This document shows, in pieces, positions 7,755 to 28,718 of a stretch of 64,000 nt of DNA (positions are counted from its first letter, which is position 1; every line of letters starts with the position of its first letter). The stretch comes from Strobilurus pachycystidiatus (lineage: Eukaryota; Basidiomycota; Agaricomycetes; Agaricales; Physalacriaceae). The stretch spans positions 1 to 64,000 of the forward strand of contig JAHLMK010000020.1 in NCBI GenBank assembly GCA_019915135.1. Direction: 5' to 3'. A model generated the notes under the pieces. It was not told where the DNA came from and ran no database searches. It saw only the letters and a list, made by a program, of their open reading frames with translations. A program made the position numbers and the translations under genes.

Positions 7755-7828
7755 CGTCTATCCACCGGATACTCGCCGCCGCCGCCCGCGCTGCTGCTCG
7801 AACCATGCGCATCCGCCTGCGCGGGACT

Positions 7829-9882: not shown

Positions 9883-9914
9883 GCATAGTTGATAAGGATG
9901 CTTATCGACTATGC
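9883..9914. repeat. Hairpin, 14-bp arms
   Basis: GCATAGTTGATAAG and CTTATCGACTATGC flank a GATG loop, with one G-T pair. In the older copy near 332-355 the downstream arm is partly deleted. Confidence 0.8.
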
Positions 9915-10704
9915 GGGATTGAAGGGTGGGCCACCCAACGGTTACGATGACCCTGGGCATCACTCGCCGGCGACGTAGGACGCTCCTCGGTCATGGCGCC
10001 TCGTGCACGGGCTGGATCCATTCAATTTGTGCACACTGTGGCGTCAACCGCGCTGCCCGTTTGAGGTGCGTTAACTGGCCTGTTTCCTTCGCATATGCCA
10101 GCTGTTTCACGGCACATTTGACGGTATGACTGGTTTCTTTGTGGACTGATGTCCCGCACCGGGTAAGCCTTCTCGTGACATCGGGTTGCCGGTGTGCTTT
10201 CTGTCGCTTCTTAGCAAAATGTACCGGGACGGACCACCTCTCCCGGACATGTGAAGTGGAGGAGTCAGTACCTTGGTAAGTCTCTTGACTGCTTCGGATG
10301 TGAAACCCAGTATATCTCATGCAAGACCCATCAAGCACGTTGGATAAGGTCTCGGGAGATTTCTACCACTCTGATGTATTTTTTCGCTATGTAATCAACT
10401 GAAATAACATGGTTAGTCTCACTCTTGGTAGTTCTAAGCACCACAACACATTTGGCACTGTTTGTGTAGTATATTGCATTGACTGAGTTCTTTGGCAATC
10501 ATAGCAAGGAAACAGAGACGGTTTGATGGGTGTGTATGGTAAAAAATGGCTAAGGATGCACATGAGACCACATGCCAAGATGTGGATACAGCTGTGACAT
10601 ACTGTTGGCTTGATGTAAAGACCTTTGTAGGTTGTTTCTGTTCTCAATGAGATTAGGACGAAATGATATGGTCAAAAGTGCCATAAGCAGCAGTTTGGCA
10701 TTTC

Positions 10705-12382
10705 AAACATCTTTTGCGTAGCGTGCGGAGGTTGAGGAGTGGCGTCGGAGGTGCGTGACTTGTGTTCTGACTGCGGCGGGTCAATGATGGTGAACATCGG
10801 ACAGTGCGCGGTATTGGGAATGACACGGCGAGGCGTGCGCTTTGACTGCGAAGACGTGAGAAGTGAAAACACAAAGCGCGCAGTTGAAGAGCGAAGACTC
10901 GGTCGGGTTGCGAATTCTCAGCTATGCGGACAAGTTGGTCAATGCGTTCAAGGCTATGTCTGTCGAGCGTTCGTTTACGAGGCAAGGACTTGAATCAAAC
11001 AGTGCGAACAACTGCTTCTTGACTGAATCTTACTCGCTTTGACTCGGATGTGTGTTTGACTTGTATATGGAGGGTCAGTGGTATGTATGTTCAACGTGTG
11101 TTTAGGTCAGGCTAAGAAGGTTCGGAAGGCGTTGGGAGACTGTCTCAGAGAGGGAAAGGCGTTCTATCTTATCTTGAGAGGGTGACGGAACTTTCTTAGT
11201 GGGCGAAAAGACGTTCTCTCTGCATCGTAGCAAGAATGCGTTGAACTCAAGTCGGTTATACGGACAGACTCACTCGGTTAGAAGGTTAGGTTCGGGTTAG
11301 AAGGTTAGGGTTCTCGGTGTTCTCGCTCGCGCAGCGAAGAGAACGTTTAAGAAAGGGCCCGCGCGCGGGGCCTCTGTCTCAGTGCGTATCGGAGACGCAA
11401 CAAGATATGTGACATTATTCTAAACTGGTCAATCGGTGCAATGAACGAGATCATTAAGGGAAGATATACTGTTCCGATGCACGCAAAACTTGCATTGTCA
11501 TCTTTCAAACATCTTTTGCGTAGCGTGCGGAGGTTGAGGAGTGGCGTCGGAGGTGCGTGACTTGTGTTCTGACTGCGGCGGGTCAATGATGGTGAACATC
11601 GGACAGTGCGCGGTATTGGGAATGACACGGCGAGGCGTGCGCTTTGACTGCGAAGACGTGAGAAGTGAAAACACAAAGCGCGCAGTTGAAGAGCGAAGAC
11701 TCGGTCGGGTTGCGAATTCTCAGCTATGCGGACAAGTTGGTCAATGCGTTCAAGGCTATGTCTGTCGAGCGTTCGTTTACGAGGCAAGGACTTGAATCAA
11801 ACAGTGCGAACAACTGCTTCTTGACTGAATCTTACTCGCTTTGACTCGGATGTGTGTTTGACTTGTATATGGAGGGTCAGTGGTATGTATGTTCAACGTG
11901 TGTTTAGGTCAGGCTAAGAAGGTTCGGAAGGCGTTGGGAGACTGTCTCAGAGAGGGAAAGGCGTTCTATCTTATCTTGAGAGGGTGACGGAACTTTCTTA
12001 GTGGGCGAAAAGACGTTCTCTCTGCATCGTAGCAAGAATGCGTTGAACTCAAGTCGGTTATACGGACAGACTCACTCGGTTAGAAGGTTAGGTTCGGGTT
12101 AGAAGGTTAGGGTTCTCGGTGTTCTCGCTCGCGCAGCGAAGAGAACGTTTAAGAAAGGGCCCGCGCGCGGGGCCTCTGTCTCGGTGCGTATCGGAGACGC
12201 AACAAGATATGTGACATTATTCTAAACTGGTCAATCGGTGCAATGAACGAGATCATTAAGGGAAGATATACTGTTCCGATGCACGCAAAACTTGCATTGT
12301 CATCTTTCAAACATCTTTTGCGTAGCGTGCGGAGGTTGAGGAGTGGCGTCGGAGGTGCGTGACTTGTGTTCTGACTGCGGCG
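10705..12382. repeat. 802-bp satellite array (units 1, 2 and start of 3)
   Basis: Units recur every 802 bp from about 10705 and are almost identical. The third unit is cut by the KDZ insertion at 12382 and resumes at 27251. Each unit contains GGTTAG-rich telomere-like sequence ('gttagaaggttagg', 'gttagaaggttagggtt') and a GC-rich core, GGGCCCGCGCGCGGGGCC, followed by 'tctgtctcggtgcgtat'. The 84-residue and 146-residue frames repeat with the unit and have no domain; I do not call them genes. Confidence 0.95.
12375..12382. other. Left 8-bp target-site duplication of the KDZ element
   Basis: CTGCGGCG at 12375-12382 recurs at 27243-27250. The undisturbed 802-bp unit in block D copy 2 (around 45658-45665) has it once. 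Eight base pairs is the duplication length known for Zisupton-type elements. Confidence 0.95.
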
Positions 12383-12416
12383 AGCCATAGTGGTACTAAT
12401 TACACTAATAGCCCAT

Positions 12417-12446
12417 GATAGTTATCATGAAAACCTACATGCAAAT
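12417..12446 (+). repeat. Left subterminal inverted repeat of the KDZ element
   Basis: It matches the reverse complement of 27181-27210 at 28 of 30 positions, beginning GATAGTTATCA and ending TACATGCAAAT. TGATAGTTATCA at its start is itself a palindrome, and a further CGATAGTTAAC follows at 12449. These may be transposase-binding sites (inference). Confidence 0.9.
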
Positions 12447-13167
12447 CGTCGATAGTTAACAAAAGCGGCGGGACCGGGGTACCCTCCTCGCTATTCGCCG
12501 GGATGCTTAGCTAATGTCCACGCCGCCCTCATCGGTCCCCGCGGGCGCTTTGCGCGCGCCTCCCCGTCCTTTCGGGGATACTACCTAGCATCGGGAAATG
12601 AAATGCGGCTCGCTCTCCCGGCACCGCTCTCCCTTTCGGCAGCCTGGGCGTAGCGGTACGCATTGGGATACGCTCAGGGTCCGCCTATTCCCGCACCCTC
12701 GGTGCGGTAATCCGGTAATCCCGGTGGGTTGGCCCAGGAAATGCGCCACACCATATATATTGGGGCCCGGGGGGTCAGCTCACTATTCACCAATCACAAC
12801 ATTATTTTCTTCAATTCTGGGTACGCAGCGAGCCGCAAGGACCCGTATTTCTTGCCACTAGCTTCCCAAATACAGATTTTTTTTTCACCCAGAAAAAGGT
12901 ACAGACTTATCAAGACTACAAAAGATGCACTTGCCATCCCTCTTTAAATCTGATTCCATGGAGCGAGCGAGCGGGGAATGGGTGCGGCGGCGGTGCTCGC
13001 GCTGTACGCGTCAGCTACCACGTGGCGGCCAAGTCCAACAGCACGTGCATGAAAAGGGACTTGTGCTGTTTCGCCATTCATCACCACGCCACACTATGAT
13101 AAGCATTCAATAATCAGCCACACACTCCTTTCTAATACACATCCACCCGACGATAATTCTCTATTAC
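12447..13167. other. Left non-coding end of the KDZ element
   Basis: About 720 bp between the left subterminal repeat and the end of the first minus-strand gene. It is GC-rich to about 12760 and then more AT-rich. I see no gene and no clear repeat. Confidence 0.6.
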
Positions 13168-16093
13168 TTAATCTACCTGCGAGGTCTTCTCAAGCCCGTG
13201 CCGCCTCTGCAAATCCTCAAGCAACCCCGTCATCGCCCATTCCACATCCAGCCTCGCCTCCTCCAACTGCACTTTAACGGATCCTTCGCCCGACTCGATT
13301 GCATGCGATTGCCACCACGACAACACCGCCACGATAGACAGCAAGCCATTTTGTCCGGGTACAGTCAGATTTTCCCACTTACCGCCATACGCATCTCTCT
13401 TCCAACGTCCCTCAGCGTCCCGGGAGCGCCAGGAACTCTGAAGCGCACCCCACCACACCGTCCAGGCCGCCATAAAAATCTTCGCGTCGTCGTGCATCAA
13501 GACCGCCCGCTTGTTGGCACGCGCCCGACCGTTCCTGATCCAAGTCGCGAGCAATGCGGGGCGGAAACGCGTCGCACCTAGGTTGAATTTCTTTCCTTCA
13601 TCAACCGACATCCAACCATGCTCACGCTCTATCTCTAGCAGCAACCGCACTACTTTCATCAGCTCCTCTCCCCCCTCGGCGTCAAGAAATTCGCCTGTTG
13701 GTTCTGCCAGCCAGGAAGGAGCCTCCGATACCAAAATGGCAATCCTCTTACGCTCCTCGTCCATCTCTCTCCGTTTCTTTGACCCTGGATCACCCTCCAA
13801 CCCCGGCGGCGCAGGATCCGTAGCATTTGGAGATGGTGTATTCGGAGCTCCAGGCGCAGGCGGCGGTGTTGCGACGCGTGTAGGACCACGTACTGGTGAC
13901 TGTGGAGGAGCCGAGGTGCGCATAGGGCCAACAGGAGATATCGGCTGTCTGAGAGGAGACCCTGCACCCGCCGGCGGCGCTGACATCCGCCCCATCGAGC
14001 GTCCTCGCCGCCTCGTCATCCGCATCACCTTTGAGGGAGGCTCCTCGCCATCCTCTCCTATTCCTGCACCACCTGATGTTGTTCTCCTGCTCTTTCTCTT
14101 TGGTCTTTTCCGCCCCGAGTCGTCCGGACCATTTTCCCTAGATACATTTCCTCTCTCGGCGTCACCCGCGCCCTGCGCCTTGTCGTTCCCTGATTTCTTC
14201 GTCGTAGTCTTGCTCCGCAGCCTCTTAAGCTTCCTTTCTCCGCCCTTCATAATCCCACTGCCCGAATCCAACCCTTCTTCGTCAGATTTATCTGCCTCGT
14301 CCGACGATCCTTCGTCGGAGGAAGAGCTCTCATTTGAAAACTCATCCGAAGAGGACTCGTTTGAAGAATCTGTGTCGGATTCCTCATCGGAGAGGTTGCT
14401 GAGCAGACTCGACTGCAGCCGATCAGTCCTCGCTGAAGCTTGGTGACGGGTAGATACGCGCCGGGTTGATGTCGATTCCCGATCGGTCCTCTGCACGCTT
14501 GCTTGTGTAGGTGTCGCGACATCATCAGCCTCATTCGGACCAATCTCGCGCTGGTGCGGTCCGACTTCGTCAGAGTGTTGGGAATTTGATGCGGGGGAAC
14601 AGTGGATTTCGGGGGGTAGGTCATTCTGGGCGGTTTGCGCAGCCTGAAGACTCGCGTGATGGGGTTGGGACATAGCCGTGGGAGGAATGTTGGTCTCGGA
14701 GCGTAGGTTGTTCTGGGCGGTCTGCACATTGACACCGGCGTTATCGATGGCGATGGGTTGCTCGGAGAGGGGAGGAAGTGCCTGGAGACCCACATCTTCG
14801 CCTGTACTTGGGGGAAGTGGCGCAGGGTTCGGGGCAGCAGCCGCTGACAAGGTGTTCGATCCAATCCCTGCGGGAACAGAGGGCGCCCCAATCCCGCTCC
14901 GTTGGCACACGACCGAAGCTTTATCCGCTCTGGAGTAGCAGAGCTCGAGCCACTCTTGATACGAGTCGGTGAGCGCTTTCATTCGCTCCACCCCCATCCA
15001 TTCCGGAAAACTTAGAGGTACGTCGCCGCCATGCTTTGATGTCGTCACACTGAGACACCCAACCTCAGTACCTGTCTCCGTCGAATATATTGAAGACTTA
15101 CTTTACCGTCCCAATGCCTCCGTTATGCACGTCCATAGGCCCGCCCATCAAAGTGAAAATGCGACAGAATGTGCGCTCCTCTATTCCTCGGTTAATATCC
15201 CCAATGAAAGCCTCAGCCCTCGAACACGCCCTGCAAACAGTTAGCTCAAGAATTCAGTTGTCGCCCGTCTACACTTACAGTGCACGCGCCTCCGCTTCTC
15301 TCGATGGAGGCGCCTTCAGTAACTCCCTGTACTTCGCCTTCGCCTCGTCCCCTCGCTTCTTCGCGTCGCCCGCCCACTTCGCCCTATCCTCAGCACTCAG
15401 CGCTGCGAAGCCTTTCCGCATCATATCCGCGGTGAAGTTCACACCGCGCCTCGCAACCTCCTTGTCCGTGCGGTCATTCCACGACGTGGCGACCTTCCCA
15501 GCAATATTCTCGCCGTCCTTCCAGTTTGCGTGCGCCCACATGTGTGCAGCTTGCGGTTGACGAGGAGGCTTATCACATCCCGCCAGCTTAGCCATCAGAA
15601 TCTGGAATGGGTCGTCGGCGTCGCGCTTGGTCAGCCGAGAGAGTCGCTTCCTCAATTTGCGTGCCCGATAATGGAACCACCGCCGCAGACGCTGCAGAAG
15701 CAGAAGTGAGTAAACCTTAGGCAAATCCGCGTTGTTACTCACGTTATTGTAGGCTTCCGTATGTGCTCGCTTGGCTGCCAACTGCCCGTCGTTCAAGGAC
15801 GACTCCGTCATCAAGGGCGGGCGTAGAGGATCATACTGAAGCAATTCGACTGGTTCGTCCGTGTCGGTCATCGGCCAAGGAAAATGGAAGTGGTAGAGGC
15901 TCTGGAGCTCTTTAAGCCTAGTCTCCAATGCCTGCCATCCCTTGTCAGCCGCCTCTGCGAAAGACGGGACCAACGGAAGGAACACTTCCTGTCGCTTCCC
16001 CTCCATCCAACCCTTCGCGTTCTTCCGGTCGCTTTTACTTTTTTTGTTATACTTGCGCTTTCGCGCCTGCGGCTTGGTCTGTGTACGCGCCAT
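13168..16093 (-). CDS. Large conserved agaricomycete protein of unknown function, KDZ cargo
   Basis: Four exons on the minus strand: 16093-15743, 15691-15279, 15230-15102 and 15049-13168, with introns of 51, 48 and 52 bp. They join into 924 residues. The basic N-terminus opens MARTQTKPQARKRK. A helical part follows, with RRWFHYRARKLRKR and a segment ending near FAALSAEDRAKW that resembles HMG-box-like 'FxxLSxExRxxW' patterns. A GGPMD...FPEW region comes next, then a long acidic and Ser-rich linker with Arg/Lys patches, and a C-terminus rich in Trp (WTVWWGALQSSWR, GQNGLLSIVAVLSWW). I recognise the pattern from mushroom genomes but know no named domain or function. The first intron is 51 bp and in frame, so unspliced RNA would also be open. 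The start is the MART methionine; an in-frame ATG lies 48 bp upstream. Confidence 0.8.
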
Positions 16094-16488
16094 TTCCACC
16101 GGATGGTATGACTGAAGGATTTGACAGAAGTCTGAGAACAACTCCGCCGAACGTACGGACCCTTTCCTGTACGGTCACCATATTTGAAATCGATACATGG
16201 CCATGGTCATCTAGGGAAATTGCCGCCGCTAACTCTAGGGAAAATGCCGCCCCAATAGGTCTCGGGGTCCTAGCCACCTAACGATCGATTCGTTCAGGAA
16301 ATACCCTTTCGGCCATCCTCGTGTAAGTCTAGGTGACCATCAGTAAAATGTCAAACTGATCTAGGGATTATTGGACCCCAGAACGTTTCCATATTCGTCG
16401 AATTGATCTAGGGGAATTATCATCGCCGTTAGATTAAAAGGTGCGCGATGAGCGGCAATTCTTTTCCCATTCGCTCGCAGTGACTTAG
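16094..16488. promoter_or_regulatory. Divergent promoter region inside the KDZ element
   Basis: About 395 bp separate the start of the large minus-strand gene from the start of the plus-strand hybrid-binding-domain gene, so both promoters must lie here. CTAGGGAAA-type motifs recur several times (near 16210, 16236 and 16409). No obvious TATA box was identified. Confidence 0.5.
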
Positions 16489-17140
16489 ATGTCGACGTTG
16501 CCCATTGAGAAGCAATTCGCACCGGTCCAGGATGTTGGTGCTGGCTCATCGCCAGCGCCAGCATCCGCAGCCGTTGATGGTATGGCTCGTAAGTCAATCA
16601 ATTTGGTCTTAGTGGGTGAGACTGACAATCTTTACTCCCAGAACCAGGTGATGGAATCACCGACTCGTCGCCACCACCCTACCGCACCGCCTCCATCGCC
16701 ACTCCGCCAAGCTGGTTCCCCGCCGACTGTGTTTACGATCCGCACCTGACGGAAGGTGACTACGCCACCAACGGCGTAGACGAGTCTGTGCCGCGGGTCG
16801 GTGTCCTCTACGACCGCATCCCTGCCATTCCGCTTCGCGCCGCCTTCCTGCCCAAGAACATCGATGACTCGAAGACGTACTTCTACTGCGTCACCGTGGG
16901 TCAGAAAGTTGGCATTGTGACTGATGCGTAAGTGATAAATAAATCCTCTTCGCCAACTTTCTGCTGAATGCTGACTATGTTACCCCTAGGGCGGTGGCTG
17001 CGTCCTTCACCAACGGCGTGTCCGGCGGCTTTGCGAAGAAGCGGCACAGTCAGAGCGCCGCCCTCAAGTTTTTCAACGACGCCCTCGCTGGCGGCGAGGT
17101 TGTCATTCGCGGTCTGCGCGCCTCGCGCCGCGATAAGTGA
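16489..17140 (+). CDS. Protein with one RNase H1 N-terminal (hybrid-binding/viroplasmin-like) domain
   Basis: Three exons, 16489-16588, 16642-16927 and 16990-17140, give 178 residues. The N-terminal half is Pro/Ser-rich. The C-terminal part contains FYCVTVGQKVGI, then TNGVSGGFAKKRHSQSAALKFF. This is the signature of the small domain found at the N-terminus of RNase H1 and in caulimovirus viroplasmin: an aromatic 'yyVVxxGxxxGI' strand, a central 'xxNGVSGxxxKKxxxxxxA' and a helix. In known proteins the domain binds RNA-DNA hybrids or double-stranded RNA. No RNase H catalytic domain follows. A role in transposition intermediates, silencing or RNA binding is inference. The introns are 53 and 62 bp with standard GT-AG borders. 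Confidence 0.82.
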
Positions 17141-17340
17141 GCATTCAATCTAAAACATGCGCTCCTTTCTCACTCGAATCAAAACAGATTGTGTGGTGTT
17201 TTCTGTGGGGCGTGCGTTATCATTTGAATCTGGGGTATCGGGCTTTAGGCCGTCGTATCAACTTCCATGTACCGCGTTCCTGGCACACTTGTATAAATAC
17301 GGTCGTCTGCCCATTCCGCAATCTGCCTTCTTTCTGCAGT

Positions 17341-18379
17341 ATGACTCCCACCACCCCCAAACCAAAGGCGTCCCGGATCCTCATCACCCTTCATTCGGAT
17401 TCGGAGGATGATGAGCACTGCACTCTGCCTGCCTCACCCGCCTCCTCCAGCGGTTCCACACGCGTCTCTGATTCTATCTCGACAGTATCCTCGCTTACCG
17501 CAAGTACTGGGTCGTCTCGCTCCGCCAACCTCGATCAAGATCTTGACGATCTGTCCTCCACGCTATCCAGCATCACTCTCTCCTCCACAGCACCTGCGGC
17601 GCCTCCCGTTACACCAGCCAATCGCACTTTTTACTCCATTAGCACCGCGGGAGGCACGCGTTACACTGATCGTTGGCAAGTTTTAGCTTTTCGACCTTCA
17701 CCTCTTACCTGATTGACATTTTGTTGGCAGGTCAGAGGCGGGCACTGCACAGATTCGCCACGGAGCTCATGTCCAACGTCTCACGCCCAAACCACCCCGC
17801 CAACAAACCAAGCTACGTGCGTATGTAGCTTTCGTCGCCGCGAACCCGGGAATCTATGACACTTGGTAAGTCTCGGCAGAAGGTCTGATAGCGTTTTATT
17901 GATGAAGAAACACAGGGACGAATGCCAAGCCCAGACTTCTGGCCAAAGCGGCGCCCTCCATCAAGGGTATCGAACCCACGCGCTGGCGAGGGCAGCCTAC
18001 TATTACGCTCTCTCGCAGGGGTTCGTGCGTACGGTTCACGCTGCCCAGAATGAGGCCTACTGTGCAGTCCGGATCACCAAATGGCGCCTTTTGGTGTGGG
18101 CTGCCGACAGCCCGCTCAGTGCCGGTGCTCGGAGGGGAAGCTCTTGGCATGTGGTTTTCGTAGGCACGGAGACGGGCCTCTTCAGCAATTCGTAAGTACC
18201 ATCACACCTGCGTTTGTACCGCCTCTTGCTGACTGGCTTTCAGCATCGAGGCGGCAGTTCACCACATCAGCGTTCCAGGTTCTTTGCACCAAGGATTTCC
18301 CACCTACAACGAAGCACAGCAGGCTTATCGAGATGCGTTTCTAGCGGGTGAGCTCGTAAAGATGATTAGATTGTCGTAG
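17341..18379 (+). CDS. Protein with two RNase H1 N-terminal-like domains
   Basis: Exons 17341-17675, 17731-17865, 17916-18191 and 18244-18379 give 293 residues. The first about 110 residues are low-complexity, rich in Ser, Thr and Pro. Two divergent hybrid-binding-like repeats follow: AYVAFVAANPGIYDTW...GALHQGYRTHALARAAY, and WHVVFVGTETGLFSNS...GSLHQGFPTYNEAQQAY. Both show the aromatic strand, the 'PGxYdTW' or 'TGLFsnS' turn and the Gly-Ala/Ser...aromatic motif of the family. The first intron begins with GC (GCAAGT), a rare GC-AG intron; the others are GT-AG. The gene lies 200 bp downstream of the single-domain gene on the same strand, suggesting an old duplication with later doubling of the domain. 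Confidence 0.75.
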
Positions 18380-18399
18380 TGTACAACGAATGCTACGAC

Positions 18400-19125
18400 T
18401 TAAAAGTACTCGGCATCCTGCGCGTGAACGACGCAATATAACGTACCCTCGACATGACTCGCACGAAGGGTGTCCTGCAGAGATTGCAAACTGAGGTCGC
18501 ACAAGGACTGCACGGCAAAATTGAGCGCTCGGAGGAGATCGCGGGCGGCACGCGTGCGATCATGATCCTCGCCCAAGACGGTCGACGCTGCTTGCTCCAA
18601 TCTCTCCGCCTCGGAATAGAACTTAGTTGCGGGCGCGCATTGTTCAACCAATTTGTCGGCGACAGTGTCCTTGTCGTTGGCCTTGTCCAAGGCAAACCAC
18701 CGCCATTGCTGAACCCAAACATAAACGTCCCCGCCACACCATTGCTCTACCCGCTGCTCCAATGAGTGCACCTTGCGCGTGTACTTCCGGCGATCCGTCT
18801 TGGTAGAAGTGGGTTCCCTGAGAGCGTATCAGAGATTAGTGTGTGACGCCGGAGCCATGGAGATCAGAGCGTACACGTCTCCCCGTTCTCCGCGTCTCAT
18901 CGCCCTCCCAGCCCTCGTCCTTCCGTCCACAGCTCCTGTTTCCTTCTTCTCATGATATCGCATTCGAGCGCGCGCATTGAGGCGGTTTTTATTTCTATGT
19001 AGCTCCGTCAGTTGTCAGATTGATAGAAGTAACATCAAACAATACCGCTGCCAGTAATTATTCTTGGATTTATTCTGCGCGGCCTGCCGGTCTGCATCAG
19101 TGAGGTAGAGAGGTCTTCCGGTCAT
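18400..19125 (-). CDS. Basic-region (bZIP-like) protein, KDZ cargo
   Basis: Three exons on the minus strand: 19125-19046, 18994-18875 and 18817-18400 (introns 51 and 57 bp), 205 residues. The first exon encodes GRPLYLTDADRQAAQNKS. The splice then joins WQR to NKNRLNARARMRYHEKKE, which resembles the N-x-x-R-x-x-A-R basic region of DNA-binding leucine-zipper proteins. The C-terminal part is helical (SLEQRVEQWCGGDVYVWVQQW, then Leu-rich) without a clean heptad zipper. Similar 'GRPRxYxTxExxxAANRxKxxxxY' motifs occur in other mushroom proteins as I recall them. The 3' end faces the upstream plus-strand gene with only 20 bp between the stops. DNA binding is inferred. Confidence 0.65.
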
Positions 19126-20060
19126 GCCGTAGGGTGTTGAAGGAGTGAGTTCGGGTGCGAAGTCAAAAAGACGCACAAAAATGCCCAGATGACAATGATG
19201 GTCGCAGTGAAACAGTGTGATCGCAACATGCAAAGCCCATTACTCGATCTGGCATGACATGTTCACTAGACAAACATGCTCACCGGACACTTAGGCGGGC
19301 TCGGCTCCCTCCAAATTTCTCATGGATTGACTTAGACATTGGTCAATCCCAACTTCACATTTTTTATTGCACGCGAAAATGTGTGCTTTGTAGAGTAAAG
19401 GCCATTTTGACCCCCCATTTTCACTAGAATGGAATAGCTTGTGCCCGACATTGCCATATTTCGTAAGAAAAACTGATTATTTCCTTCCCATCTCGACCGC
19501 GGTGGTGTAGTGGCTGAGCATACCCGACTGTTGTGGAGACCTGGGTTCGAATCCCAGTCTGTGGTCATTTTTTAACAATATTTTGATTCCAACGTCGCAG
19601 GGCGAGTACACAGCCACTCCCAAACTTGGCTCTTGCAACGATCGCGTCCCTTTGCTCGCCCGAATTCCAAAAGGGATGACTGTTCCCTTGGCCTTAGACC
19701 ACACCGGCTCTCTGACATCTGCTGATGACGACCAGGCTTGATCCTCCCAGCGACGTCGAAGAAGACACATTCGCAGCTACCTTCTCTAGCCTTCGCGTCG
19801 CACTGGCCGCCCCAAGACGCCTCTCTAGGTGCGTCTCTGCATTGGCCCCGCGTGCGTTCTCGCTCACCTTTTGTGGGTAGAGCCTCTGAGGCGCTCCTGC
19901 ACCCTGTCGTTCCGCCGCGGCGCTTGCGTATGCTAGCCTCGCCCTCAAAGTAGGTCATTCAATTGGTCTGGATGAGTAACAAGGTCTCACTTCTTCCAGT
20001 GGGCGCGTTATCCTGCATCTCAACGCCGCATTGTCTGAGATACGGGCTCATCACAGCAAC
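19126..20060. other. Intergenic segment of the KDZ element
   Basis: About 930 bp without a convincing gene. It contains a small hairpin (GGATTGAC...GTCAATCC near 19322-19349) and a tRNA-like sequence at 19495. Open frames between 19570 and 19960 occur on overlapping strands and lack any domain. Confidence 0.6.
19495..19567 (+). ncRNA. tRNA-like Pol III unit (pseudo-tRNA or SINE head)
   Basis: The 73-nt segment has an A-box-like TGGTGTAGTGGC, a perfect B box GGTTCGAATCC, ends that pair over seven positions (GACCGCG with TGTGGTC, two G-U) and a run of six T at 19568-19573 as terminator. The anticodon arm is too short for a normal stem, so I do not assign an anticodon or call it a working tRNA. 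A transcribed tRNA-derived element is possible. Confidence 0.5.
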
Positions 20061-20450
20061 ATGACTACCCAGCTCCAGCTCCACACCGCAGAGCAATACG
20101 CCGCCTTGATGGTTAAAAAGGCATTGAAGACTCCGGGCTTCACCAAGGCCATTCTGCACGCTGCCTTCGAGCTCCTCGCGCATCACGCGCGTAACTGCGC
20201 CCCTTCCATTCGTGAGATTAGGCGGTGGGGACCTGAGCATGCGGATTATCAGGCATTGATGTCTGAGGCGGAGGCTCTCTACGCCGAGATCATCAAGGCG
20301 TATAGGCTGATTACGGATATTGTTCATCAGGTCGACGAGCTGGCGTATGCTACAATGGGCCAGCGCGGCGTTGCAACGCGCGCCGCACATTATCATCGTC
20401 AGCTGCACATCTTGTATCGCGGCGGGTCGTTCTTGTACCAGGGACCGTAA
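20061..20450 (+). CDS. Small helical protein of unknown function, KDZ cargo
   Basis: A single open frame of 129 residues, intronless. It begins MTTQLQLHTAEQYAALM and is predicted by eye to be almost wholly helical, with no Cys. An upstream in-frame ATG at 20031 would add ten residues. I chose the ATG at 20061 because MTTQLQLHT starts the amphipathic pattern; the choice is weak. No domain recognised. It lies in the plus-strand run that leads to the transposase, 66 bp before the next gene. Confidence 0.55.
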   Translation: MTTQLQLHTAEQYAALMVKKALKTPGFTKAILHAAFELLAHHARNCAPSIREIRRWGPEHADYQALMSEAEALYAEIIKAYRLITDIVHQVDELAYATMGQRGVATRAAHYHRQLHILYRGGSFLYQGP

Positions 20451-20515
20451 CTACCGGCCTTCGAAATTAACATTTGCTTTATTGGCACCCTGACCTAACC
20501 TGCCTTTGCTCCACC

Positions 20516-21144
20516 ATGCCAGCTTCTTCACCTAAGAAGAAAACACCTGCCAGACGCGGTAACGAGAAGAAAGCCGCCCAGCAGACGATTGCTTTCCCGC
20601 TCTCCCAAGCGGCTTGTCGTCGGTACGATCCTTTCCTTATCTGTTCGTATTGCGCGCTGAATGGCACCAGCCATGTCAGGGAACACCTGCGCACCGCGCG
20701 CCCTATTCGCAGTGACGTTCAGCTCGGCACTGGAGCTCAAGTCTCTAGTGAGTACAGCCTTCGACATCATTAGATTCAGTGCTCAAGCGGGGCCAAGGGA
20801 ACCGAGGCGCGGAAGCGTTCATTGTGGTTGCAGAGCCGACGTTTACGGCTCCGTCGGACTCGTCCTTCATGCACGTTGAAGTTGTACAATTTCTCCAGGC
20901 GTACGATCTCGGCGGTTGTGAAAACCGCATGGCAGACATGGGCATCTACACCCATGAGGACCTGGTAAACATTGCCGTTGACATTCGGGATCAGAAACTC
21001 CGGCAGAAGTTCAAATCCGGACTTGGGGTCTCTGAGGGGGTGTGGCGCACGGTCAAGACGGCCCTCTATCGTTACGCCAGGCCCGTGCCAGGGCGTATCC
21101 GAGCTGTCGCAGGGGTTCAAGGAGCTAGGGAGGAAACGCTCTGA
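20516..21144 (+). CDS. Small CxxC...HxxxH protein, KDZ cargo
   Basis: Two exons, with 187 or 198 residues depending on the splice. The N-terminus is Lys/Arg-rich (KKKTPARRG). Residues around 43-60 read ICSYCALNGTSHVREH, a CxxC-x6-HxxxH arrangement that could bind zinc but is shorter than a classical C2H2 finger. The second exon (from 20780 to TGA at 21144) holds a helical segment, FLQAYDLGGCENRM...GIYTHEDLVNIAVD, loosely like a sterile alpha motif. The intron could be 20748-20779 (32 bp, very short) or 20712-20779 (68 bp); both keep the frame. Function unknown; protein or DNA interaction is a guess. Confidence 0.6.
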
Positions 21145-21279
21145 GGGTAGCTGGGGTCCCCAATTAACGCGGCGGCTGTATAGGTATTTCATATTATCCC
21201 TAGAAGTACATGACAACGCCGTCCTCGGCTTTATCCTTTTACTCCGCAAGTCTGGACCATCAAGACTTGTCCTCTTACG

Positions 21280-22143
21280 ATGAGCAGCGACAGCCTTTCC
21301 ATGCCAGATCTCATGGATGTGAGCGACAGCGAAGATGACGGGTATGCACCCACCGTCTTGAAACCCGCCCCCGCTTCCCCTCCTGAGTCCTTCGACGAGG
21401 ACGACGCAGTTCCGGTCTCAGACAGGTCGCAACGGTAAGTCATCGTGCTCTGTGTGCAGGGGTATTTGGCCTGACCGACTCTGAATCCCCAGCATCATCA
21501 TGCGCCACATGGCGTTAATCGAGGACGGCCCTCCCGCACTAGGAGACGCCGCCCTCAAGGAGAGGCTCAGTGGCGTCGCAGGCGAATTCTTGCTCTCACG
21601 CCTTGCCCAGTGCGGAGTCACCTCCTTGGATCGTCTTGACAAGGCCCTTGACTGGTGCGAATATACAGTCTACCAGTCTTTTCTTCGAACGGCCGTGGGC
21701 TTCAGGCCGCGTAGCGGAAACTGGATGCTCTTGGCAACGTTAGCTGGTACGCTTAACAAGGTCGACATCTTTGATTCGGGGAACGGTTCGTCCTGCCGTC
21801 GTCTTTGCGTGACGTACTGACACCAACTTACTTCGCAGGGCATAATCTTCGTCGCCAGAGACGTCTTCGAGCGCAGAACGATGCTCAAGCATTCTTGAAG
21901 ACATGCGAGGACATTATGTACGAGGAACTTGCCACGCACCCGGAACCTCGCGTGCGCTGGATCCCCCGACGAGTCAGTGCGTCAATGGTCAGCTATGACA
22001 GGTGTTGTAGCTGGGCTGAAGACAATCGTAGGGCGTGGTTACTTAGTCAAGGAATCTCAGGTGATGAAGGACCTGCCCAAGGAGAGGCTGTTGAAGCGTC
22101 ATGGATGAAGAGGGGGGCGGACGGCGGAATAGGCGGGATGTGA
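21280..22143 (+). CDS. Protein of unknown function with acidic N-terminus, KDZ cargo
   Basis: Three exons, 21280-21434, 21493-21785 and 21839-22143, give 250 residues; introns are 58 and 53 bp. The N-terminus is acidic (SDSEDDG, FDEDDA). The middle is helical (LSRLAQCGVTSLDRLDKALDWCEY), and the third exon begins with a basic patch (LRRQRRLRAQN). No domain recognised. The clean splice sites and absence of stops suggest a functional gene. It sits between the CxxC protein and the stand-alone CxC2 protein on the same strand. Confidence 0.6.
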
Positions 22144-22310
22144 AGTAGTAAGCGGCGCCCATTATGTAAACCTTTCATACTTTGTCGTCCGCCCTGAGTT
22201 GCCTATCACTCGCTTCTTCCCAGCTTCTTCCCACTATCGGTTGTGAATACATAACTTCATGTAAACTCTCCTTGTTTCCTCATGAATTCTTCTCATCCAT
22301 GTTAGCAAAG

Positions 22311-22800
22311 ATGTCTGGCCGTTGTACTGTGTGTGGAGTCGGCAACGCGGCGCTCTTCCGCTGTCTGGACTGTTGGCCGACGGGCAGTTCAAGTTGTGGT
22401 CCATGCTGTGTCGCGCAGCATCGAACCAACCCTCTCCACGTGATTCAGGTGAGGACAAGCCCAGCACAGAAAGTATCACTGTCAGAACTGACCTGAAGAT
22501 TAGTTCCAAAGGGAGCCTGACAACTACGAGTACACCTCCTTGCGGCGTTTGGGCTTGGTTTTTCAACTCGGGCACGGTGGAGACGCTTGTCCTAATGCGG
22601 AGAAGGAGATCGGCCTAACCATCATTGATGTCACTGGCTATCACCCGATATTAGTGCGTTATTGTGGTTGTGCAGGGGCGCGGCCCAAGAATCAGCAAGT
22701 TATGGAGCGAGGTTGGATGCCCGTAGTCAACGGTGAGGGAGAGATGGAGAGATGTTTCACCAAACGTAGTTTGGAAGTGTTGGAATTGTTGGCCTGCTAA
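22311..22800 (+). CDS. Stand-alone CxC2 zinc-cluster protein (truncated KDZ N-terminus)
   Basis: Two exons, 22311-22448 and 22504-22800, with a 55-bp intron, give 144 residues. It begins CTVCGVGNAALFRCLDCW, continues with CGPCCVAQHRTNPLHVIQ, then LRRLGLVFQLGHGGDACPN and VRYCGCAG. These are the same ordered Cys/His blocks found in the N-terminal CxC2 module of the neighbouring KDZ transposase, with the intron at the same place after the 'PLHVI' motif. The frame then ends in a natural stop before any catalytic region. It may be a DNA-binding regulator or competitor of the transposase, or a relic of a second transposase copy. The intact frame and splice sites favour a working gene. Confidence 0.75.
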
Positions 22801-22952
22801 TTTTTTGTGAAATCGTAATTTTTTGTTGGACGACGAGAGACCATCGGGTACATTCGGATGTTTCCGCCCGGGAGCCGATGCGATCAATTTCGCCATTCTC
22901 GTTTTGCTATCTACCATTGCCGCTGTGACCGCCCATCGCGCCCGGAGCCTCC

Positions 22953-25900
22953 ATGTCTAACTTCGTACCGAGCACAAACCGTGGGGGTCGCCCTCGGAAA
23001 AACGCTCCTTTCGTGGCCCGAGTTGGTCCCGAAGCCGAATCTCCCGTCGACTTCAATGTGCACATCCTGCCGACAGGAGAAGTCAGCACACAGGCGTTGC
23101 CACCGACGAGGAAGCGCAAATTTGGACCGACTGATTTATCTGCGGAGTACGGCACGTTTGCCTTTGGATTGGAGGAACCGGGCGCTGATTGGGGAGGACA
23201 CGATGCGGCCTTGCACGAGCTTGGTCCTGCAGAAACACTGGTGGACGGTGATGGGGAGGAGTTTGGAGAGGAAGAGGACGCGTACGCGGAGACAGTGGAG
23301 GGGGACACGGCAAAGCGAAAGCGCTACACCAGCTCCGTACGTCCACTGTCCATGTGCATCTAGGGAAAATGCGCAAATATTAATCTTCGACAGGACGACC
23401 CGATGCAAGAGTGGAAGCCTTGGACTACCGCGTTTCTGGAAGAGACGATTCGATCCCACGCCCTTGGAATCGACTGCTTCGAACCGCAGTGCAGTTCTTG
23501 TGGAGTTCACTTGGCTAGTGAGAAAGTTTGGTTACCTGCCGACACTCCGGTCGTATCTATGCCCGAGGCGGCCCCTCCTCATGCTATCACCCCCACTCTC
23601 TGCGATGAACTGTACCGCTGTCGCAACTGCGGTGACTTTCTGGAGTGCGCAGCGTGTTGTGTGACCCGACATCAACGCTCTCCCTTGCATGTTATCGAGG
23701 TGAGTCCCAAATGTGCTTGACCTTGAGTCGAGTAATGTTCTGACAGTGTATTCAAGGTCTGGAGGGACGGATGCTTTCGGCGTACAACGCTGCGCGATTT
23801 AGGACTCATCTTCCAACTTGGCCATAAGGGAGGTCCCTGCCGCTATCCCGACGCGACGCCTCGTCTCATGACGGTCATTCACGTTAACGGTATCCACATT
23901 GTCGCCTTCCGCTATTGTTCTTGCGAGGTATCCGATCGGGCGCACCAGTGGCAGCAAATCATGCGAAGTGGCTGGTACCCGGCAACGACGCACATTCCTC
24001 AAACCTGTGCGAGTATGGAATGTTTGGACTTCTTCCGCCGACTGAAGGTCATCGCTACCGTTAACGTCCGCGACTACATCACGACTCTGGAGGACACGAC
24101 CAATCCCTACGGCACGGAGTGGACGCCTGATCGCTACAAGGCGTTCTTGCGCATGTCGCGGCAATGGGCATTCCTGAAGCGTGTCCGTCGATCCGGAGTG
24201 TCACACGAGGTCGGTGGTATGGGCAATGCCCCGGACGGTGCCGTGGCCGTCGAATGTTGGGCTTGTCCACGAGTAGGGGTCAATTTGCCTGACGGGTGGG
24301 AGGACGTGGATGCCGAGTTTCGGTAGGTTTTTGGGCATGATTGGCGATGGAATTTTCTCATGTCTCGACGACAGATATCTTTATCGACGCATACTTTCGA
24401 TGGATGCAAACTTTCGGATGCGTTGTAGATTCCGCGCGTCCCCTCGCGTGGACGAACCGTTGTATTCTGGTCTCGGGGTGCAAGTTCCTGTGGAAATGTA
24501 CCACAGCTGGCTCAAGACGTATATCACCGAGGAGGACGTAAGTCATTTCGACTGCTCCGAATGGGTAACGCAAGCTGACATCGAGAAGGTCTCGTCTTGT
24601 ATATCATTTGCGGCGTTGATGCAGAAGGACACGCGATTCTCTGTGGGGTTGAGGTGGGCAGGCGTAATAGGAGTGATTTGCGCACGGCATGAGATCATGT
24701 TGGGCCTAGGAGACTTGGAGAAGGGTGAACGGTAAGTAAGCATGGTATTTTTGGAATGGGTGTCATTAACAGGAGGTTCACAGGTACAAGAACTCGGACT
24801 TTGTACTTTATTGGCTCTTATCACGCATGGGCCTCAAGGAAGTTACGGTGACCTACGATATTGCCTGCCAATATAAGAAGCATTTCTACGAACGGATCGA
24901 AGCTTTGCCGGAGGAGTTGAAAGGGCTTGATCTCCCGATCTTAACGTGGGGTCTGCCCGTCTGGCACGGAAACGTTCACGACATCGTTTGCGAGACTAAG
25001 GAGTCGCTCAAGTACAAACCCGGTGTAGGGAAGACAGATGGTGAAGGAATCGAACGGGTTTGGGCAGTGTTCAACGCTATATCGTACATGACGCGCGAGG
25101 AACAACCGGGAGCCCGGCACGACGACATTGAAGACAAAGCGGATAAGCATAACTTTGGGAAAAATATTGCATTGGGTAAGTGTACATGCAGTACGTCGAG
25201 ATTGATACTGACACAGAGTTATGATGTTCTAGGAAATACTTTGCTCCGCCGCCTGCGGATTGCTCTCGAGGAGCGTATGGTACAGGTGGAAGCTTTCGAA
25301 GAGGCGAACGAGGCACTCGAGGACTCATTGCGTGAGGAATGGATGGCTATGGTGGATGCGTGGCTGCAGGATGAATCGAAACCGAGCCCATATGCACCGT
25401 CCGGGACAGGTGAGCCTTGAACTGTCTGGACAGATTCATATCGAATCCTGATATCTGTCCTAGTTGACCTCACCGAGGCTATGGTCCGTTTGTCGTTACA
25501 TCAGGAGGAACTTGCAGAAACGGCTGCTGGCGAGGAGGAGGAGGCAGCGGCTAGGTTAAGAGCCGACGCAGAGGAAGCGGACGACGCCGATGAAAGCGAC
25601 GACGCGGGTGGCGGTGGGCGAGGAAAAAGGAAGAAGAAATCTCAGAAGCGCAAAAGCAAAAAGAGACGGACGGGCTTGGGCCGCGTCAGTATGGCCGGGT
25701 TTGTGATTATGGGATTGCGGGTTGAGGAAGGACAGTAAGTGGTGTTCACCTTGTTTGCGTTGCACGATTGATTGAGCACTATCAGGCGACGTTTGCTGGC
25801 CGAGAAGTCAATCAAGTCGTTGACACCAGATCGCCAAGCAAAAATATTGGAACGGCGCCGCACTCTCGAGGCCCGCGTCAAGGAATTTCGGCGCTGGCAA

Positions 25901-26988
25901 GCCGTTTATATGCCACGGATTTCTATCGTACTCGAACGCGAGGAAAATGAGAGGCGAGTATCGCGTTCTGCTCCTCCGGCGGCAGAGGATGTTCGACTGT
26001 ACCTCCCATCGGAATGCGCGGCCTCCAAAAGACTTCAGGCGGAAGTTGGATGTCCGCAGAGATTGATCAGACAGGAGGCGGCATTGCGAAAAGGGCAGTG
26101 TGCTGATGCTCTCACTAGAATAAGATCCCGCCTCTGCGCCAAGCGATATCTTGTCATGTATCGGAACGCACACTCAACAGGGCAGCGGGCTACCACACGC
26201 TCAGCGACTCTGATCGAGTCCATTAGCACGAAGATCGCAGACGCTGTCGACAAATATCGCCGGTCGAGAATGAGCCTCGCAGGATTGGTGGGTGGAGATT
26301 CTTGTGGGGAGTTTAGGGTTCTAGAGGATGACGATGTGAAGGTCTACATCACAGCGGAGTCTGACGCAGAGGCGGTGAAGAGACTTGGCCGCTTGCACGA
26401 ACGGGATAGTAGGGTGACGGGGACGGGCCGCGTAGGAGCTAAGCAGCACAGACGGCGCGATGTTCCGGGCGAGGGTAGGGCGACTATCTCATGGATATGG
26501 ACGGCGAATGGCGGACCAGACGCCGAGGAGGATAGCTATCTCCATGAATGTAAGTTCGCAGTTTGTGGCGTACATAAAATGTCATTAACAATTGTGCAGG
26601 TGTTCGTATCGAATGGGCCAAGGCACTCGCGCGCAAGACTCGATGGTGTGAGGAGGTCGAGAAATTGAAGGAAGAAATGCGCTGTGTTTTACGCAGCTTG
26701 CGCTGGGAGGAGCACGAATGGGATCGGCGCAGGGACTTGGACGGGGTAGGCTTGGGCGTGGAGGAGCGGTGTGGAAGAAGGGCTTATGCCATCAAGCAGG
26801 CAGCGGATCGTCGAAGGGTTCGTGAGTCGTTTGAGGAGCTGTGGAAACGGGCGACCCCACCGCGCGGGAGGAAGGCGGGGGCGATGGATGGTACGGCCCG
26901 GAGTGCTTTGGTGTCCATCATTGCCGAGGAGGATTTGAACGCTGCCGGAAGTCTTGCCGGGCAGGAAGTACATGCCGATCCGCTTTAG
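22953..26988 (+). CDS. KDZ-family transposase with CxC2 module
   Basis: Ten exons (22953-23336, 23394-23699, 23757-24322, 24375-24537, 24589-24731, 24784-25175, 25233-25409, 25464-25734, 25786-26549, 26600-26988) join into 1184 residues. The CxC2 cluster spans about 161-286: CSSC, CRNC, CAACC, RHQRSPLH, LGHKGGPC and YCSCE. The RNase H-fold core has SMDANF (Asp429), CARHE and GDLEKGERY, TYDIACQY (Asp546) and TDGEGIERVW (Glu608), all hallmark KDZ motifs; the three acidic residues are my candidates for the catalytic triad. A Lys/Arg nuclear-localisation stretch lies near 763-780. The C-terminal helical region contains 'QCADALTRIRSRL' and 'GQRATTRSATLIESI', also typical. Exon 5 follows a 51-bp in-frame intron whose removal restores the usual 'EDVSSCISF' spacing. 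No disruption seen; likely able to mobilise the element. Confidence 0.93.
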
Positions 26989-27180
26989 GGAACAGCCCGC
27001 CTGTGACGTGTAGCCAGTAACAAGAATAATATATGAAATTTGCACTACTTGGCTCGTTTGGGAATGGACGGCGGGGGAGGAACACAGCCTCATCCGCGTT
27101 GGGAGGCCACCTTCCTAATCGGGCAGTCCGTGCGCTGCTATCATTGATCGATAGTTATCGGTCACGATAACTATCGGGCT
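26989..27180. other. Right non-coding end of the KDZ element
   Basis: The 3' flank of the transposase gene. It includes CGATAGTTATCG (near 27149) and CGATAACTATCG (near 27164), subterminal palindromes related to the inverted repeats. Confidence 0.7.
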
Positions 27181-27210
27181 ATTTGCATGTATGTTTTCCT
27201 GATAACTATC
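27181..27210 (-). repeat. Right subterminal inverted repeat of the KDZ element
   Basis: Reverse-complement partner of 12417-12446, with 28 of 30 positions the same. With the two palindromes just upstream, the right end carries three GATAACTATC-type boxes, against two on the left. Confidence 0.9.
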
Positions 27211-27242
27211 GGATAAAAGTCTTTTACATACATCCACAGGTG

Positions 27243-27250
27243 CTGCGGCG
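27243..27250. other. Right 8-bp target-site duplication of the KDZ element
   Basis: CTGCGGCG, identical to 12375-12382. The interrupted 802-bp unit resumes immediately after it with 'ggtcaatgatgg'. Confidence 0.95.
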
Positions 27251-28548
27251 GGTCAATGATGGTGAACATCGGACAGTGCGCGGTATTGGGAATGACACGG
27301 CGAGGCGTGCGCTTTGACTGCGAAGACGTGAGAAGTGAAAACACAAAGCGCGCAGTTGAAGAGCGAAGACTCGGTCGGGTTGCGAATTCTCAGCTATGCG
27401 GACAAGTTGGTCAATGCGTTCAAGGCTATGTCTGTCGAGCGTTCGTTTACGAGGCAAGGACTTGAATCAAACAGTGCGAACAACTGCTTCTTGACTGAAT
27501 CTTACTCGCTTTGACTCGGATGTGTGTTTGACTTGTATATGGAGGGTCAGTGGTATGTATGTTCAACGTGTGTTTAGGTCAGGCTAAGAAGGTTCGGAAG
27601 GCGTTGGGAGACTGTCTCAGAGAGGGAAAGGCGTTCTATCTTATCTTGAGAGGGTGACGGAACTTTCTTAGTGGGCGAAAAGACGTTCTCTCTGCATCGT
27701 AGCAAGAATGCGTTGAACTCAAGTCGGTTATACGGACAGACTCACTCGGTTAGAAGGTTAGGTTCGGGTTAGAAGGTTAGGGTTCTCGGTGTTCTCGCTC
27801 GCGCAGCGAAGAGAACGTTTAAGAAAGGGCCCGCGCGCGGGGCCTCTGTCTCGGTGCGTATCGGAGACGCAACAAGATATGTGACATTATTCTAAACTGG
27901 TCAATCGGTGCAATGAACGAGATCATTAAGGGAAGATATACTGTTCCGATGCACGCAAAACTTGCATTGTCATCTTTCAAACATCTTTTGCGTAGCGTGC
28001 GGAGGTTGAGGAGTGGCGTCGGAGGTGCGTGACTTGTGTTCTGACTGCGGCGGGTCAATGATGGTGAACATCGGACAGTGCGCGGTATTGGGAATGACAC
28101 GGCGAGGCGTGCGCTTTGACTGCGAAGACGTGAGAAGTGAAAACACAAAGCGCGCAGTTGAAGAGCGAAGACTCGGTCGGGTTGCGAATTCTCAGCTATG
28201 CGGACAAGTTGGTCAATGCGTTCAAGGCTATGTCTGTCGAGCGTTCGTTTACGAGGCAAGGACTTGAATCAAACAGTGCGAACAACTGCTTCTTGACTGA
28301 ATCTTACTCGCTTTGACTCGGATGTGTGTTTGACTTGTATATGGAGGGTCAGTGGTATGTATGTTCAACGTGTGTTTAGGTCAGGCTAAGAAGGTTCGGA
28401 AGGCGTTGGGAGACTGTCTCAGAGAGGGAAAGGCGTTCTATCTTATCTTGAGAGGGTGACGGAACTTTCTTAGTGGGCGAAAAGACGTTCTCTCTGCATC
28501 GTAGCAAGAATGCGTTGAACTCAAGTCGGTTATACGGACAGACTCACT
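27251..28548. repeat. 802-bp satellite array (rest of unit 3, partial unit 4)
   Basis: Continues the array cut by the KDZ element. Unit 4 starts near 27981 and stops at about 28548, where 'gactcact' turns into unrelated sequence. Counting the interrupted unit, this copy of block D has four starts; copy 2 has three. Confidence 0.93.
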
Positions 28549-28718
28549 ATCCCTCTTGAAACGGAAGTGGAGGGCTCCAATTCAAACCAAAATTTTGTTT
28601 TGGAAGGATTTTGGAAACCGCCATTTCATCTACAACACAGAGAATGGTGCTTTTCCTCTCAGCCTCACACAACCGCCATTCCACTCGCAACACAGCGGAT
28701 GGCGGTTTTCCTCTCAGC
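28549..28718. other. Spacer between satellite families
   Basis: 170 bp with two related stretches, 'ccgccattt...ttttcctctcagcct' and 'ccgccattcc...ttttcctctcagcct', about 60 bp apart. Present again at 46162-46331. No gene. Confidence 0.7.

Follow-up and report, generated by a model that had tools for sequence, protein, structure and literature searches.

A KDZ-class DNA transposon of Strobilurus pachycystidiatus with eight further genes and a tRNA-like sequence as its probable constitutive parts

We found in the window (the whole 64,000-nucleotide stretch analyzed here) what is very probably a complete KDZ-class DNA transposon, carrying multiple genes and mobile in the recent past, in which genes A to H and a tRNA-like sequence are constitutive parts alongside the transposase gene, I. 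This reading is built on the element's ends, its target site duplications, an empty site, two near-identical full-length pairs, a shared gene order and purifying selection, all taken from sequence comparison. That near-identical copies sit at new sites points to recent activity, which makes the element testable. The features are as follows, in window coordinates.

12375..12381, 7-bp target site duplication CTGCGGC, left copy
12382..27242, + strand, whole element, 14,861 bp, 5'-GAGCC...GGTG-3'; identity with the C18 copy begins and stops at these bases
12382..12401, + strand, left terminus GAGCCATAGTGGTACTAATT, kept among copies
12417..12458, + strand, subterminal inverted repeat, left arm
13168..16093, - strand, gene A, 941 aa, without Pfam match; conserved N-terminal and C-terminal regions, variable middle
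16489..17140, + strand, gene B, 178 aa, weakly RNase-H1-N-terminal-like
17341..18379, + strand, gene C, 293 aa, PF01693 RNase H1 N-terminal (hybrid-binding) domain, two stretches
18400..19125, - strand, gene D, 198 aa, basic-region protein, no Pfam match over cut-off
19495..19566, + strand, tRNA-like sequence, 72 nt; A-box-like motif and perfect B-box motif, short variable anticodon region, T6 starting 1 nt downstream
20061..20450, + strand, gene E, 129 aa, one exon, helical
20516..21144, + strand, gene F, 176 aa (revised model), predicted SAM-like fold in the C-terminal part
21280..22143, + strand, gene G, 250 aa, without known domain
22311..22800, + strand, gene H, 144 aa, lone CxC2 cysteine cluster (PF18803), no transposase
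22953..26988, + strand, gene I, 1201 aa, CxC2 and KDZ transposase (PF18758)
27168..27210, - strand, subterminal inverted repeat, right arm
27225..27242, + strand, right terminus TACATACATCCACAGGTG
27243..27249, 7-bp target site duplication CTGCGGC, right copy

The preliminary description had recognized a 14.86-kb KDZ element at 12383..27242 with an 8-bp target site duplication. The element and its two visible ends hold, but the nine complete copies place its start at the G at 12382 and give a duplication of 7 bp. The string CTGCGGCG is found at both 12375-12382 and 27243-27250; in the copy comparison, however, the 7-bp duplication is exact in all nine complete copies and the eighth base matches in only three, which marks that base as a chance match in the window copy. 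All nine copies have GA..TG termini, and the subterminal inverted repeats noted earlier are borne out (38 of 43 positions identical between the arms). When joined, the element's flanks match an uninterrupted unit over 1399 of 1400 bases, at units 11573 and 44856; against units 28045 and 45658 the match is 1241 of 1400 bases, the array stopping inside the compared stretch. The 802-bp empty site reported previously is an uninterrupted unit as described; more than one unit may be the orthologous one, because the units are nearly identical and the two blocks apparently differ by one unit. The element is missing from the duplicated block in the window. The window as a whole holds a 99.99% segmental duplication and tandem arrays.

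All nine gene models translate without internal stops, as first described apart from small corrections; the protein given earlier as 924 aa is the 941-aa product of gene A. Gene I scores 155 bits against PF18758 (cut-off 26.6), and its CxC2 match (PF18803, 107 bits, residues 242-347) lies ahead of the transposase domain; candidate D/D/E residues, assigned by eye, are in SMDANF (427), VTYDIACQ (560), and DGEGIERVW (623). Two hybrid-binding-domain proteins had been proposed. Gene C is one, scoring 61.1 bits against PF01693 (cut-off 21) in two stretches and matching structure 1qhk (E 0.00088); gene B is a weaker candidate, its window protein having no PF01693 match over cut-off in the Pfam search and two of six relatives having a match (best E 0.035). 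Gene F has two ordinary introns in the present model, which supersedes a 198-aa model with a 32-nt intron; the older model underlies the Pfam search, gene-order comparison, dN/dS, and genome match search.

Across the nine proteins, the Pfam search returned nothing over cut-off except PF01693, CxC2, and KDZ. It gave no TET/JBP dioxygenase match (genome matches were all below cut-off) and no tyrosine recombinase captain domain of the Starship type; very distant PE-type TET relatives, of a kind found by structure-based comparison (PMC12730594), may be present inside the element. A search of a large protein database returned no homologue for protein G. In PDB profile searches the best E-values were 0.84 for A (137 positions) and 0.7 for G, and A, E, and G matched no known fold or family in the Pfam and PDB profile comparisons. 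The predicted structure of E has a mean pLDDT of 62. Matches of E to PDB chain sc-apCC-6-DPH-NR (E 0.0053) and of the C-terminal part of F to chain FD15 (E 3e-5) were set aside, no single stretch passing alone, and an HMG-box reading of the N-terminal region of A, made by eye, was dropped without Pfam support.

Elsewhere in the genome, a copy on C18 is 99.86% identical across 14,581 bases, with a further 285 bases at 100%, and has different flanks. Copies C12a and C12b have 15.1 kb in common at 99.8%, again between different flanks, and in the stretches compared C9 and C1 are 99.6-100% identical, while their left flanks differ. Relatives at other sites have the same termini, each complete copy with its own exact 7-bp duplication. 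The nine genes occur in the same order and sense in five complete relatives (C12a, C12b, C5, C2, and C1); divergent copies retain gene order at 40-80% protein identity, and the most distant of the complete copies read still have A, B, C, D, F, G, and I in this order. Copies C6e and C5e have no detectable E, H, or tRNA-like sequence, and C5e has an antisense F-like gene at about the place of E. In C4, A-C are missing together with the left end. The whole gene set is missing from none of the nine complete elements read, although this sample is biased by the way copies were found, through resemblance to the element, to its genes, or to its ends. Since the whole-element DNA search overlooked the near-identical C18 copy, its list of copies is incomplete and a lower bound. 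The same gene order thus recurs between matching ends and duplications at non-allelic sites, and the near-identical full-length copies at different sites agree with the preliminary description's proposal that the extra genes travel as a unit with the transposase.

The tRNA-like sequence is present in nine close elements, and all nine exact genome matches to a 20-nt 3' pattern fall inside these. Its body is 89% identical across six lineages, compared with 40-47% in adjoining blocks; T5-T7 follows within 2 nt in all eight copies read (six lineages), and it lies 7.1-7.5 kb from the left end in the seven copies with a left end. Against the tRNA covariance model (RF00005, cut-off 29), the window copy scores 23.9 bits and the C6 copy 25.4, both short of the cut-off, and an antisense C7 copy reaches it at 34.9 bits. 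The diverged copy C6:345900 keeps the acceptor stem and has a paired change in the T stem. Folding energy is no better than that of shuffled sequence (z -0.84 to 0.10), and four distant gene E loci (C18:785786, C1:90149, C1:4067701, and C12:1491495) match neither tRNA-like pattern. A tRNA-His identity, read from GTG in the window copy, was dropped because other copies lack GTG. The RNAs mascRNA and menRNA have a tRNA-like body with a reduced anticodon arm; the C6 copy matches their family (RF01684) weakly, at 18.5 bits against a cut-off of 42.5, and is not a member.

The association of the accessory genes with KDZ extends across the genome. A same-sense KDZ transposase lies 6.8-11.6 kb downstream of gene A at 26 of 37 loci, where ~0.5 would be expected (0.014 per locus, with loci merged by hand from genome matches). 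Within 12 kb downstream, the corresponding counts are 22 of 27 loci for F, 15 of 16 for G, and 11 of 13 for E. At only three of the 37 A loci is there no same-sense cassette part nearby: A is rarely solitary, which speaks against the outcome that the preliminary description named as a refutation, the extra genes being host genes in conserved chromosomal positions. The genome has 120 merged KDZ loci, and because 91 of them have no gene A within 24 kb, the gene set is characteristic of some of the KDZ elements in this genome rather than of all. Three such loci (C7:2057357, C20:137526, and C7:2224479) have right-terminus-like sequence with 2-3 mismatches and no A within 24 kb, so KDZ copies with like ends but without the gene set may exist, although none of the nine complete copies is of this kind.

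The element genes are under purifying selection, as read from low dN/dS: of 42 gene-by-element comparisons, 20 are saturated, and the 22 that give a finite dS have ratios of 0.06-0.34. These ratios are rough, since dS is at least 0.99 even where finite; C and D against C18 (where HSP edges at introns distort) and cells under 25 codons (A, B, and C in C4) were left out. For A-G, protein distances track the transposase distances (r 0.59-0.96, six to eight elements); for H, r is 0.19, a value as high being reached in 421 of 2000 permutations. The H rows for C6e and C5e probably matched the transposase's own CxC2.

The preliminary description had called this a large cargo transposon. Understood as in Starships, this would mean that a KDZ transposase had acquired host genes beneficial to the fungus and that the content could be swapped freely. 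Large size, many genes beside the transposase, partly variable content (the loss from view of E, H, and the tRNA-like sequence in C6e and C5e), the antisense F-like gene in C5e, and the 91 KDZ loci without A nearby would fit; the three loci with right-end-like sequence may even hold very different gene sets. We consider this very unlikely, because same-ended relatives, down to the most distant complete copies read, keep seven genes in order, dN/dS is low while synonymous sites are saturated, protein distances follow the transposase's, A, E, F, and G lie mostly beside KDZ, and the only Pfam domains over cut-off are PF01693, CxC2, and KDZ. We therefore read the extra genes as conserved, constitutive parts, not swappable cargo. 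Even less credible, to the point of being nearly negligible, is a small transposase element nested beside an older repeated gene cluster, the large unit being copied by segmental duplication. The window does contain such duplication and tandem arrays, but its duplicated block is without the element, the flanks of near-identical full-length copies are unrelated, and the common ends of every complete copy are bordered by an exact 7-bp duplication of its own; flanks and duplications refute this account for the window copy, C18, C12a, and C12b.

For the tRNA-like sequence alone, a SINE or host tRNA pseudogene caught by chance would account for the tRNA resemblance below the Rfam cut-off, the unremarkable folding energy, and the four distant E loci that match neither pattern. 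It is nevertheless unlikely given the confinement of the 3' pattern to the nine close elements, a body so much better conserved than its surroundings, the downstream T-run in every copy read, and the kept acceptor stem and paired T-stem change of C6:345900.

Under the constitutive reading, the transposase would perform the movement: it most likely binds the subterminal inverted repeats, most likely cuts at GAGCC...GGTG, and would insert the whole 14.9-kb unit to give the 7-bp duplication, with A-H and the tRNA-like sequence moving and evolving together with it. The accessory parts probably serve the element, in roles suggested by domain likeness. H may act as a CxC2 regulator without catalysis or as a partner that binds DNA; D and A may bind DNA or take part in assembly, and F may be a SAM-like oligomerizer. 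C (and B) could bind hybrids or dsRNA and perhaps dampen silencing, and the tRNA-like sequence could be a Pol III unit or a boundary bound by TFIIIC. More speculatively, and we hold it as a tentative proposal, the element might run its own anti-silencing and assembly machinery, in which hybrid-binding proteins shield or sequester silencing RNAs or R-loops. Also part of it would be the lone CxC2 protein as regulator, a scaffold built on SAM, and a tRNA-like RNA of the transposon's own, made by Pol III and acting as boundary, processing signal, or protein scaffold. If so, this DNA transposon would have a conserved noncoding RNA gene and an organization close to that of a small virus genome.

The closest described systems include the TET-positive Kyakuja, Zisupton, and Dileera transposons of fungi, which likewise have a KDZ transposase in Agaricomycotina and an accessory gene inside defined ends (Kojima 2025, PMC12730594). 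Their accessory gene is a TET/JBP dioxygenase, whereas the present element carries a tRNA-like sequence and eight genes of other kinds; the main text of that paper does not contain the words tRNA, RNase, hybrid, or SAM domain. By duplication length and termini as described there, Kyakuja shares the 7-bp duplication and has no terminal inverted repeats but ends in 5'-CA..TG-3' rather than GA..TG, and Zisupton differs in its 8-bp duplications. Cryptococcus KDZ1-KDZ3, for which insertion into a reporter gene was demonstrated, likewise have a KDZ transposase with a cysteine cluster, but are about 9-11 kb long with TIRs of 139-241 bp, CxC1, and duplications of 8 bp (KDZ1) or 4-8 bp (KDZ2 and KDZ3), and the passages on them describe the transposase alone (PMC12810828). 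In intact KDZ transposons of Pleurotus ostreatus the CxC2-encoding region is always ahead, as here, and the passages on them mention no further gene set (PMC7641404). Dada elements resemble ours in their subterminal inverted repeats, 6-7-bp duplications, and tie to tRNA genes; they insert into tRNA or snRNA genes, whereas our tRNA-like sequence is internal (PMC3706591). Starships are also large, many-gene fungal elements, but as generally described they rely on a tyrosine recombinase and have accessory genes that vary, in contrast to a KDZ transposase with largely fixed content.

As far as the listings and passages covered by our literature search go, neither this gene set nor a tRNA-like sequence is described in KDZ elements, although part may be in print; those passages treat KDZ elements as a transposase with at most a TET/JBP gene. 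If selection has maintained as many as eight further genes, together with a tRNA-like sequence, through many jumps, then cut-and-paste elements of eukaryotes can be complex systems of several components, and the accessory set offers concrete candidates for element assembly, self-regulation, and escape from silencing. KDZ elements are abundant in mushrooms, making up, together with Plavaka, about half of the DNA elements reported for Marasmius oreades (PMC8290104). In Hymenopellis, two gene models join F, CxC2, (G), and KDZ in one frame, and in P0006 a lone CxC2 precedes G, whereas H follows G in the window element.

The element belongs to a KDZ lineage that has a largely fixed multi-gene constitution and is recently mobile, one branch of which possesses its own tRNA-like sequence. 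In the genome (51.8 Mb, 61 contigs; the window opens contig 20 and covers its first 64 kb), nine complete copies (the window element, WIN, and C18, C12a, C12b, C5, C2, C1, C6e, and C5e) share the ends GAGCC on the left and GGTG on the right. In all nine, the 7 bases flanking the element are duplicated exactly, and the eighth base agrees in three. The duplication reported in the preliminary description is thus present in the window, with a true length of 7 bp rather than 8 bp. Because of the same end comparison we assign the G ahead of AGCC to the element, which moves its left end from 12383 to 12382 and leaves the right end at 27242. The subterminal inverted repeats and the empty target site, also claimed previously, are both present in the window. 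Across the nine copies the subterminal motifs vary: in WIN, C18, C5, C2, and C1 both ends carry GATAGTTATC or GATAACTATC, as does the right end in C12a and C12b; a CAAGTGAC-type motif is found on each side of C5e and, in C6e, on the right. The element resembles Kyakuja in duplication length and differs from it in termini; its class is KDZ.

The nine gene models recur in the order and sense A(-), B, C, D(-), E, F, G, H, I in C12a, C12b, C5, C2, and C1, between the common ends and 7-bp duplications. The proposal that the other genes travel as a unit with the transposase (I) is supported, and the finding is real and broader than was stated. C4 retains E-I and part of D; its left end was looked for and not found. 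The more distant C6e and C5e retain A, B, C, D, F, G, and I, with no E or H detected by tblastn. C5e (L062) carries an F-related antisense gene (34%-35% identical) at about the place of E.

Merging search matches into loci by hand gave 37 loci genome-wide for A, 27 for F, 16 for G, 13 for E, and at least 120 for KDZ. Taking linkage as a same-sense KDZ gene, among the matches listed, no more than 12 kb downstream, we find it at ≥26 of the 37 A loci (spacing 6.8-11.6 kb; about 0.5 expected), ≥22 of 27 for F, ≥15 of 16 for G, and ≥11 of 13 for E. For PF01693, the family of C, the count is at least 10 of 19 including the window's own gene and at least nine of 18 without it. Among the matches listed, 91 of the 120 KDZ loci lie more than 24 kb from any A. 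Right-end-like sequence was seen at three such loci (C7:2057357, C20:137526, and C7:2224479, as contig:position). Weak, subthreshold Tet_JBP matches occur at 13 places in the genome, one of them (C26:273882) ∼6 kb from a same-strand KDZ gene.

Near-identical copies occupy different surroundings. C18 matches WIN at 99.86% identity across 14,581 bases and exactly in the final 285; its flanks are unrelated to those of WIN, and its duplication, TGGCCGA, is a separate one. A 463-bp insertion with ∼5 bases repeated at its edges separates the two matches, toward the end of the transposase gene (L058). C12a and C12b have 15.1 kb in common at 99.8%, with differing flanks and duplications; in C12a, 2 kb comprising the 3′ part of the transposase and the right end is tandemly duplicated (C12:1494552-1496681). 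C9 and C1, compared in pieces, are 99.6%-100% identical from the element's first base, with differing left flanks; C9 lacks ∼380 internal bases of C1, and the match ends inside the transposase gene. Within the window, a segmental duplication (5066-12382 versus 38349-45665) is 99.99% identical over 7.3 kb, and the element is in one copy only. From these copies and the element-free block, it appears that the whole unit moved recently, more than once.

The window also holds 802-bp tandem units, 99.9%-100% identical (10771-12374, 27243-28548, and 44054-46161); two of the 802-bp blocks apparently differ in length by a single unit. Further tandem arrays (spacing ∼0.9-1.5 kb) adjoin them at 28718-38350 and 46331-48808.

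Comparing the window with five divergent elements (42 gene-by-element cells), dN/dS is finite in 22 cells, all 0.06-0.34, and dS is saturated in 20. For A-G, protein distances track the transposase's (r = 0.59-0.96), a level equaled in no more than 57 of 2000 label permutations. On these values, A-G have long belonged to the element and are under constraint. For H, distances are uncorrelated (r = 0.19; 421 of 2000 permutations as high), and dS is saturated in all five comparisons (dN 0.41-0.57); its open frame and constant place in the close elements suggest that it too is a part.

The element also contains:

19495-19566, transposase strand: tRNA-like sequence, 72 nt, between D and E

We read this sequence in eight elements (six lineages) and detected it in a ninth, C9, by pattern match; C6e and C5e lack it. 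Across the six lineages the body shows 89% identity, rising to 100% in the T arm and falling to 65% in the anticodon region; adjoining blocks are 40%-47% identical, others in the region 32%-64%, and one edge block 77%. All nine exact genome matches to a 20-nt 3′ pattern lie inside the nine elements, and two mismatches add one, on C23. A 21-nt 5′ pattern (up to three mismatches) has 15 matches, versus one for a control. Nine are the nine elements; one, in an element at C6:341190-351510, scores 61.6 bits, with a paired change in the T stem and T5 ∼20 nt downstream. Two lie antisense near other KDZ genes, on C7 (L067; 31.1 bits; this copy also passes the Rfam tRNA cut-off) and C3 (L068; cut short, 13.5 bits), and the remaining three lie elsewhere: C1:2995132 (partial, 16.5 bits), C6:293390, and C14:808991. 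Neither pattern matched at four distant E loci.

Against an RNA product, folding energy is no better than for shuffled sequence, the window copy scores under the Rfam tRNA cut-off, and double changes affect just two pairs in a structure-fitted alignment (reached by 18 of 500 shuffles) and one in a plain alignment (81 of 500). T5-T7 follows within 2 nt 3′ in eight of eight copies. The acceptor arms are conserved although they fall outside what we take, from the consensus, to be the A and B boxes, which fits an RNA product better than a TFIIIC site alone. Part of the conservation could also stem from gene conversion among the elements.

Among the accessory proteins, C has two hybrid-binding stretches of RNase-H1 type. 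The caulimovirus protein behind the name of PF01693 is a silencing suppressor, so by analogy an anti-silencing role for C is a lead. H has a CxC2 cluster like that of the transposase but no catalytic domain, and might act as a regulator. D begins with a basic region, and F has a predicted SAM-like fold at its C-terminal end; no family was found for A, E, or G.

The nearest named proteins come from Hymenopellis, Mucidula, and Mycena, indicating a member of the Agaricales as the probable source. Among the other species found, only Hymenopellis has several genes of the set together; matches elsewhere are leads. Hymenopellis radicata P0001 is a homolog of A (43% and 53% identity in two conserved regions). 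Two gene models from Hymenopellis are apparently run-ons: P0006 (F, CxC2, G, then a second CxC2 with transposase), in which the first CxC2 stands before G, unlike H in the window, and P0011 (F, CxC2, transposase). P0011 and P0001 are perhaps on one contig, both being placed on contigs 120,953 long. In Hygrophoropsis aurantiaca, P0078 joins PF01693 (RNase-H1 N-terminal), CxC2, and KDZ in one gene model, either a fusion or a run-on.
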